NCBI RefSeq assembly: GCF_014466985.1
Contig: NZ_AP022826.1
Location: 930,001-994,000, forward strand
From: Nitrosophilus labii
Lineage (GTDB): Bacteria; Campylobacterota; Campylobacteria; Campylobacterales; Nitratiruptoraceae
Direction: 5' to 3'
Length of the DNA stretch: 64,000 nucleotides
Under the pieces are notes generated by a model. It saw nothing but the letters and a program-made list of their open reading frames with translations, was not told the origin of the DNA and searched no databases. Both the position numbers and the translations under genes were made by a program. Position 1 is the stretch's first letter; each line of letters begins with the position of its first letter. Of this stretch, positions 22,738 to 24,717 are shown in pieces.

Positions 22738-23367
22738 TCAATTTAAAGTTATACTCTCCCAAAAAAAATCCACATGCTTTTCAAATATAGTGGAAAGCAA
22801 GGTAGTCGGTTTGTTGTCAAGTCTCAAAAGAGTAACATGCAATCTATAATAAAACAGAGGTGCAAAAAACTCTTGAGCCATTAACATAGGATCGGAATGT
22901 TTTATTAAACCCTCTTGCATCATTACAAAAAAAGCTTCTGAGAGCTTTTTGATATTGTCTTGGTAGAAATATTTCAAAAAAAGCTCTCTAACTTCACTAT
23001 TTTGCATAAGCTCAAGCAAGATAATTTTAAAAAATTTCTCGTTTTTTACATCAAAAGTAATTAGCTTTATTGATGCTGCATATTCGGATAAAAACCTTTT
23101 TCCTCTTTTCGCACTTTCACTTACCGGTTTTCTTTCGAAAAAATCCGCAAAAGGGGAGGAGAAAAGATCCTTCATAATCTCTTTAAAAATCTCTTCTTTA
23201 TTTTTAAAATGGTTATAGATAGCGCTCTCTCTTATACCTACAGCTTTTGCTATCTTTCTTACAGAGGCTCCTTTATATCCGTAAAGCGAGATGAGCTCAA
23301 GTGCTGCATCTAAAATCTTTTCTTTAGTACTTTTTTCACCGTTATTTTTAGAAAAGTTCGACTCCAT
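22738..23367 (-). CDS. TetR/AcrR-family transcriptional regulator
   Basis: A 209-residue repressor: helix-turn-helix ILDAALELISLYGYKGASVRKIAKAVGI (about 17-45) with the recognition helix RESAIYNHFKNKEEI, and a variable ligand/dimer domain behind it. Its ATG at 23367 faces a 285-nt region that holds four matching palindromes (see 23388-23498), the usual place for an autoregulated TetR operator. Divergent from it are the candidate dif site and xerH. No efflux pump is in the window, so the ligand and other targets are unknown. Confidence 0.88.
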   Translation of the reverse strand: MESNFSKNNGEKSTKEKILDAALELISLYGYKGASVRKIAKAVGIRESAIYNHFKNKEEIFKEIMKDLFSSPFADFFERKPVSESAKRGKRFLSEYAASIKLITFDVKNEKFFKIILLELMQNSEVRELFLKYFYQDNIKKLSEAFFVMMQEGLIKHSDPMLMAQEFFAPLFYYRLHVTLLRLDNKPTTLLSTIFEKHVDFFWESITLN

Positions 23368-23387: not shown

Positions 23388-23498
23388 TTAACAAACGTTC
23401 ACCAAGCTCAATTTTATAATTAACAACTGTTCATATAATATTTTTATTTAATTAACATTTGTTCACCATATCGACAAAAGTATATTAACACATGTTAA
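23388..23498. promoter_or_regulatory. Four phased TetR-type operators
   Basis: Four 14-bp dyads TKAACA-N2-YGTTMA lie at 23388-23401 (TTAACAAACGTTCA), 23420-23433 (TTAACAACTGTTCA), 23452-23465 (TTAACATTTGTTCA) and 23485-23498 (TTAACACATGTTAA). Start-to-start distances are 32, 32 and 33 bp, about three helical turns each, so all would face the same side of the DNA. The last has perfect half-sites. They start 21 bp upstream of the tetR start codon, fitting direct autoregulation, and also lie upstream of xerH on the other strand. Confidence 0.75.
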
Positions 23499-23545
23499 CT
23501 TAATTGTTTTTTATACAAATAGTGCAAATAAAAGCACCCAGCTAA

Positions 23546-23573
23546 AAGTTTGAAAATTATAGTTTTCAATACA
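23546..23573 (+). other. Candidate dif (difH-like) Xer recombination site
   Basis: A 28-bp site with two 11-bp arms around a 6-bp core: TTGAAAA - TTATAG - TTTTCAA is an exact 7-bp inverted repeat (23550-23569) within looser arms. Xer sites have this 11-6-11 shape, and in Campylobacterota the dif site lies close to xerH, here 80 bp away. I cannot compare it to a curated difH consensus, so this stays a candidate. If right, it marks the chromosome dimer-resolution site near the replication terminus. Confidence 0.5.
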
Positions 23574-23652
23574 AAATTATAAAAATGAAATTAATAGTTA
23601 ATTTGCTATACTCTTATTGTCAAGTTTTCAATAAAAAATTTCAAGGTGACAA

Positions 23653-24717
23653 ATGAAGTATCCTTTAGATTTCAAGGATAATTTTGAAAAGACTCTTCTT
23701 TTTTGGATAGAGAGATTTATAAGATATAAATTAACATCCCTATCGAATCGTCTTGTAAAAGACAAAAATAGTGTTGCTGAAGTTATCAACTCTTTAGTCA
23801 AAGGAACATCTTCTATAAATGAACTATCTATTCTTGTTAAAAAAGCAAGAAATGCGGGTTTAAGCGGAATAAATACATACTACAAACCTCTTGAAAAGCT
23901 TTACAGTTATCTTACCAAACTAGGACTTGCCTCAATGAAAGAGATAGACGAAGAGATGATAATAGATTTTTTAACCTCTTCAACCGGCGGACTTAGCGAT
24001 GCTTCTAAAAAAAACCATCGAATAGCTATGATAAACTTTTTTTCATATATAGATAAACAAAATCTTGAGGATGATGGAAGTTCACATGTTTTTGGCATAG
24101 AGTTAAAAAATTGGGGCGGACTTAGAGGAAAAGCGGGACAAAAACTTCCTGTATATTTGACGGAAGAAGAGATATCAAGATTTATAAAGGCTATTGAAAC
24201 CTACCCTTTTAGGTGTGAAGTTGCAGCAAGAAACAGAGCTTTGATAAAAACCATATTGTACACCGGTATAAGAGTTTCAGAAGCAACTAACCTAAAAATT
24301 AAAGATATTATCCCAGATAGTGACATATATCTTTTAAAAATTACAGGAAAAGGAAATAAAACAAGAGTAGTTATGATAAAATCTAAGCATATAAAAAAAG
24401 ATCTAGATGAATGGCTAAGTTTTAGAAATTGTCAAAAAGATCTTCTTTTTTGCAATAAAAAAGGTACTACCCTAACCCAGGCTTACGTAAGCCGGATGGT
24501 TGAAAAAATTTTGATAAGTGCAGGTATAAAAAAAGAGAAAAATGGAGCTCATATGTTAAGACATACCTTTGCAACACTTTTATATCTAAAAAGTAAAGAT
24601 TTGGTTCTGGTTCAAGAGGCTTTGGGTCATGCGAGTCTTGATACTTCAAGAATATATACCCATTTCGATAAGAACAAGCTTTACAAAGCTGCTAGCATAA
24701 TGGATGATATTAAATAA
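23653..24717 (+). CDS. xerH: Tyrosine recombinase XerH
   Basis: A single Xer recombinase of Campylobacterota that resolves chromosome dimers at dif. It is 354 residues, longer than XerC/D (about 300), as expected for XerH. An N-terminal core-binding domain (about 50-170) precedes the catalytic domain with Arg207 (TGIRVSEA), Lys233 (GKGNKTR), His300-x2-Arg303 (HMLRHTF), His326 (LGHAS) and the nucleophile Tyr335 (RIYTHF); all six are present. ATG 23653 follows TTTCAAGGTGAC. A TGCTATACT extended -10 lies at 23604-23612. Its activity at the cell division septum depends on FtsK in related species. Confidence 0.94.
   Translation: MKYPLDFKDNFEKTLLFWIERFIRYKLTSLSNRLVKDKNSVAEVINSLVKGTSSINELSILVKKARNAGLSGINTYYKPLEKLYSYLTKLGLASMKEIDEEMIIDFLTSSTGGLSDASKKNHRIAMINFFSYIDKQNLEDDGSSHVFGIELKNWGGLRGKAGQKLPVYLTEEEISRFIKAIETYPFRCEVAARNRALIKTILYTGIRVSEATNLKIKDIIPDSDIYLLKITGKGNKTRVVMIKSKHIKKDLDEWLSFRNCQKDLLFCNKKGTTLTQAYVSRMVEKILISAGIKKEKNGAHMLRHTFATLLYLKSKDLVLVQEALGHASLDTSRIYTHFDKNKLYKAASIMDDIK

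Follow-up and report, generated by a model that had tools for sequence, protein, structure and literature searches.

The window analysed here, 64,000 nucleotides of the Nitrosophilus labii chromosome (genome G000; contig NZ_AP022826.1, positions 930,001 to 994,000), contains a gene for a TetR-family protein (tetR) and, divergent from it, a gene for the tyrosine recombinase XerH. An array of four 14-bp dyads lies in the gap between the two genes, together with further elements (window coordinates):

22738..23367, minus strand: tetR, TetR-family protein of 209 aa, presumed binder of the dyads (Pfam TetR_N, 60.6 bits; AlphaFold2 model)
23388..23401, no strand: operator 1, TTAACAAACGTTCA, 20 bp 5' of the tetR ATG, retained in relatives
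23413..23418, minus strand: likely tetR -10 box (TATAAA), read by eye and not returned by the promoter scan
23420..23433, no strand: operator 2, TTAACAACTGTTCA, retained in relatives
23452..23465, no strand: operator 3, TTAACATTTGTTCA, retained in relatives
23485..23498, no strand: operator 4, TTAACACATGTTAA, retained in relatives
23544..23575, minus strand: difH site, TTTGTATTGAAAACTATAATTTTCAAACTTTT, one mismatch in 32 to the reference, sole match in the genome
23585..23612, plus strand: xerH promoter-like site, ATGAAA-16-TATACT, with TG preceding the second hexamer; a consensus match alone
23653..24717, plus strand: XerH tyrosine recombinase of 354 aa (Phage_integrase and Phage_int_SAM_6), whose orthologs are linked to difH

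The TATAAA box is flanked by operators 1 and 2. Operator 4 ends 154 bp from the xerH ATG (23653), and difH sits between the two, with the xerH promoter-like site on its far side as seen from the array. The difH of Campylobacterota was defined by Carnoy and Roten (PMC2731167, Table 2), and the element in the window has two conserved arms around a 6-bp centre, occurs in single copy and lies by xerH near the GC skew switch. The window lies at the replication terminus, since the skew switch falls at about 38 kb (difH being at 23.5 kb) and the contig starts at dnaA.

A preliminary description of this DNA had proposed four TetR-type operators at 32/32/33-bp spacing, placed on one DNA face and belonging to the adjacent tetR. 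The four dyads (starts at 23388, 23420, 23452 and 23485) occur at exactly these positions and spacings, and all match TKAACANNYGTTMA without mismatch. In the whole 2.09-Mb genome this strict pattern recurs at four places beyond the array, each a singleton within an ORF, and the looser pattern WKAACRNNYGTTMW has 20 off-array single places, so that the cluster is unique in the genome. As the looser pattern occurs only about once per 100 kb, four sites in 111 bp are not a product of chance, and the conservation of the array at 139 distinct loci settles its reality.

Clear orthologs of the TetR protein (43–97% identity) are present in about 20 relatives and at 80 public loci, and in 71 of 397 genomes of the class at a threshold of 1e-30. 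The arrays were compared at 139 distinct tetR loci, which represent at least four families (the Nitratiruptor, Hydrogenimonas, Sulfurimonas and Sulfurovum groups). Four sites lie within 200 bp at 103 of these loci, three at 27 and two at five; one locus each has one and five sites, and two have none. The site matrix was trained on these same upstream regions, so that presence of the sites is not independently tested by it, and spacing was left out of the training. All 378 gaps between neighbouring sites (up to 70 bp) measure 21–22, 31–34, 42–44 or 63 bp, corresponding to two, three, four or six helical turns, and none falls off a whole turn. Most loci have three-turn gaps, a single genus within the window's family has two-turn gaps, and family f6 (Sulfurovum group) has four-turn gaps. 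Phase concentration at a period of 10.5 bp is high (R of 0.957, or 0.93 over the 33 distinct patterns). The tetR tree requires at least six changes of the dominant turn class and at least 20 of the full pattern, always by whole turns; the array thereby offers, in nature, a clean experiment on helical phasing. The comparison is strong evidence that selection acts on placement on one face rather than on linear distance; the proposed phasing, for which conserved spacing in relatives had been named as a check, is thus borne out. A Nitratiruptor MAG (L011 and L040) retains difH and an 80% identical tetR but only one good operator, and its array seems to have collapsed.

The array is tied to tetR, as the preliminary description had supposed. 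It accompanies the tetR orthologs with the operators always at the tetR start, and tetR is the sole protein gene common to the array surroundings at 26 of 26 loci from four families. No array was found at the dif or difH loci of tetR-less genomes (L201–L203 and L216), nor at L183 (genome G227), where tetR is a remnant devoid of its DNA-binding domain. Where tetR and dif lie apart, the array is at tetR; we looked for arrays remaining at dif after tetR had moved off and found none. One locus (L194), about 67 kb from dif, carries an intact tetR and no array.

The other conserved neighbour of tetR and its array is dif, not xerH. The preliminary description did not mention difH, or the single sites elsewhere on the chromosome. 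Of 28 near-closed genomes, 27 have dif or difH on the side of tetR that carries the array, at a distance of no more than about 2.1 kb in 26 and of 10.5 kb in G214; in G227, where tetR is broken, the search gave no dif. The linkage covers both genomes with difH and XerH and genomes with classical dif, with dnaA roughly opposite. In two genomes that are apparently those of Sulfurimonas denitrificans DSM 1251 and Sulfurovum NBC37-1, the dif coordinates agree with the published positions (PMC2731167). In the wider set, dif is within 2.2 kb at 73 of the 95 loci that have at least 2.2 kb of upstream sequence; at most of the remaining checkable loci it is about 6–80 kb from tetR, apparently on the same contig. 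Families f17 (Sulfurimonas group) and f6 have a classical dif and no XerH ortholog, and the link between tetR and dif has therefore outlived a change of dif/Xer type. In XerH lineages difH is 91–270 bp from tetR, beside the array; classical dif is 0.2 to 10.5 kb and more away, and in f17 the distance is 0.5–2 kb in almost every closed genome.

Other neighbours of the array (xerH, murA and rnpB) vary across relatives. For example, tetR has xerH next to it in the Nitratiruptor and Hydrogenimonas groups. In another example, murA adjoins tetR in Nitratiruptor, is still within about 35 kb of dif in f6, and lies 0.47–0.77 Mb from dif in f17. Part of f17 has rnpB (RNase P RNA) as the divergent gene next to the array, separating it from dif (L187, 3533-3858; L191, 3837-4179; L196, 3413-3859). 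In the Sulfurimonas group, a partial match conserved at about -400 was discarded, as it falls in or by this gene. The orientation of difH relative to tetR is the same at 22 of 25 loci and inverted at three (L016, L018 and L043). Six tetR-less members of the window's family (G010–G013, G018 and G020) gave no match to difH or classical dif, and three of them have an XerH ortholog, diverged (50–60%) in two; these members may have a dif of another kind, or one missing from the assemblies.

Single sites elsewhere on the chromosomes are biased towards the origin in several genomes. Across 12 genomes, 105 loose off-array sites have a mean position of 0.32 on a scale from origin to terminus, with 76 of them in the origin-proximal 40%; since these genomes are related, pooled p-values overstate the effect, and some lengths were rounded. 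Permuted palindromes of the same composition (359 patterns, sampled stretches of G024 and G000) are unbiased, averaging 0.49 and 0.50. All 12 off-array sites of G024 and 15 of the 20 in G000 lie within 0.4 (Kolmogorov–Smirnov against controls, 8.5e-5 and 0.005, respectively), and in G000 the number of sites is not above control, only their placement differs. In a fresh genome, G139, the 200 kb around the origin contain eight sites, and the 200 kb around dif contain none apart from the array; the control matches number 597 and 579, respectively, and no control pattern favoured the origin by more than five. Sites with the array consensus number 22, 9, 10, 13, 3, 2, 6, 3, 0 and 0 in successive tenths from origin to terminus; those with ends disfavoured in the array are spread more flatly, a split by ends chosen after inspection of the data. 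The origin-biased set is not universal, as the Sulfurovum group (f6), G007 and G009 have merely two to four off-array sites, too few to test. Viewed in context, off-array sites are mostly within ORFs, which fits position markers rather than promoters. A promoter regulon was rejected: the strict off-array sites of G000 are intra-ORF, as are most of the loose ones viewed in context. An identical site, TTAACGCTCGTTCA, occurs near dnaA in G000 (C1, 1988329), G005 (C1, 1807089) and G006 (C1, 1625535), and these copies may be orthologous.

The TetR protein itself is ordinary. Its TetR_N match is far above the cut-off of 24 bits, and 49 of 49 orthologs match the same model. The AlphaFold2 model (pLDDT 87) has an ordinary TetR fold with 372 PDB matches at E 0.001 or better; Foldseek ranks ordinary TetRs first, with FadR, FrrA and MexL among the ligand-binding TetRs that the fold resembles. 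A special role is not indicated by protein sequence or fold alone.

We postulate that a conserved TetR-family protein marks position on the chromosome and has in the array its main binding platform, through which it also regulates its own gene; on sequence comparisons, we give this reading about even chances. Four TetR dimers would occupy the same DNA face next to dif, in the terminus, where the bound dimers would also repress tetR itself, and weaker single sites would cluster round the replication origin and be excluded from the rest of the terminus. The protein is predicted to bind the dyads; cooperative binding to the array is plausible, as is autoregulation of tetR, the TATAAA box being flanked by operators 1 and 2. 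Its placement suggests position marking for segregation or division, rather than mere control of a neighbouring gene. The protein's role in the cell cycle would most likely be to help coordinate segregation or division with dif or the terminus, after the model of SlmA, Noc or RefZ; the probability that it works like these proteins is about a half. Limited full-text searches brought up no nucleoid-occlusion or terminus-organising protein described for this bacterial group, and a full-text search for phased TetR operator arrays was likewise without result. More tentatively, at a little less than even chances, the Nitratiruptor, Hydrogenimonas, Sulfurimonas and Sulfurovum groups may share an undescribed chromosome-position system, in which a dif-anchored array of about four TetR dimers on one face and its origin-proximal satellites would link the position of origin and terminus to division or dif processing. 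A gene that stays at dif despite a changed recombination system and changed neighbours is a direct and testable candidate.

The main rival is an ordinary ligand-sensing TetR autorepressor in an inherited place, in which the four phased operators would make the control of tetR, and in some cases of the divergent gene, tight and switch-like; synteny would explain its presence at dif, and conserved origin-proximal genes or chance the origin bias. The invariable position of the array at the tetR start, with the first two operators around the likely -10 box, agrees with this, as do the predicted fold, similar to that of ligand-binding FadR, FrrA and MexL, and the paucity of other sites in Sulfurovum-group genomes. 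The linkage to dif could be inherited; several draft genomes in which the two are separated keep the array with tetR, not with dif. An autorepressor offers less account of the lack of a conserved target gene, tetR being the sole shared one, of a dif-side position that survives both lost synteny and a change of dif/Xer type, and of an origin bias that permuted palindromes do not share. We regard it as a serious possibility, though on the unlikely side.

Two further readings would tie the array to recombination. In one, the array would fold the DNA at dif as an accessory complex that controls or aligns Xer synapsis. ArgR and PepA act at cer as such accessory proteins, a phased array is suited to DNA wrapping, and difH lies close beside the array in XerH lineages. 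The distance to classical dif varies over kilobases, however, rnpB intervenes in part of f17, and the orientation of difH to tetR is flipped at some loci; we rejected an accessory sequence of fixed geometry since array-dif distances are too variable, and consider the accessory reading as a whole improbable. Still less credible, to the point of being very improbable, are operators that switch xerH and tetR jointly. The two genes are indeed adjacent in two of the groups, but difH and the promoter-like site intervene before xerH in the window, and f17 and f6 retain the array in the absence of an XerH ortholog. As many array-bearing relatives have no such ortholog, we dismissed xerH as the target of the array; control of xerH is not supported by the comparison.

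Marking of chromosome position by the TetR protein, our preferred reading, invites comparison with several known systems. The window contains a normal difH beside xerH, as described for the XerH/difH module of Campylobacterota in the part of PMC2731167 consulted, where the tetR gene and operators are unmentioned. The protein shares the TetR family with SlmA, which acts in nucleoid occlusion in E. coli and whose SBS sites are dispersed yet excluded from ter (PMC6657595, PMC3573117). Like SBS, the single sites here are excluded from the terminus in several genomes; the strongest cluster is nevertheless at dif, where SlmA has no SBS array, and the Sulfurovum group has few sites. The SlmA binding motif also differs from the array motif. 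SlmA inhibits FtsZ upon activation by DNA, and a strong array at dif is an odd fit to a division inhibitor of this kind. RefZ of Bacillus is likewise a TetR-family protein with few near-palindromic RBM sites around the origin, which the origin bias recalls, although the number of sites here varies widely between genomes; RefZ acts in sporulation, and a dif-side array is not reported for it in the portions of the literature searched. The protein is not a member of the SlmA, Noc or RefZ families. RefZ is the best NCBIfam model for 49 of 49 orthologs, at 54.5 bits well under the cut-off of 180; the SlmA model gives 20.5 bits against a cut-off of 120; and ordinary TetRs top the Foldseek ranking, with RefZ in the PDB (6mj1) one among many profile matches. 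MatP also acts at the terminus, through matS sites of the form GTGACRNYGTCAC, loosely similar to the array motif, and is a non-TetR protein; its sites are spread through ter, in contrast to the single cluster at dif here, with no off-array site around dif in G139. Lastly, the autoregulated repressors QacR, AcrR and FadR resemble the protein in fold, and they have an operator at their own promoter, as tetR probably does. The array differs from theirs in its three to four operators, its strict whole-turn spacing and its retention across families.
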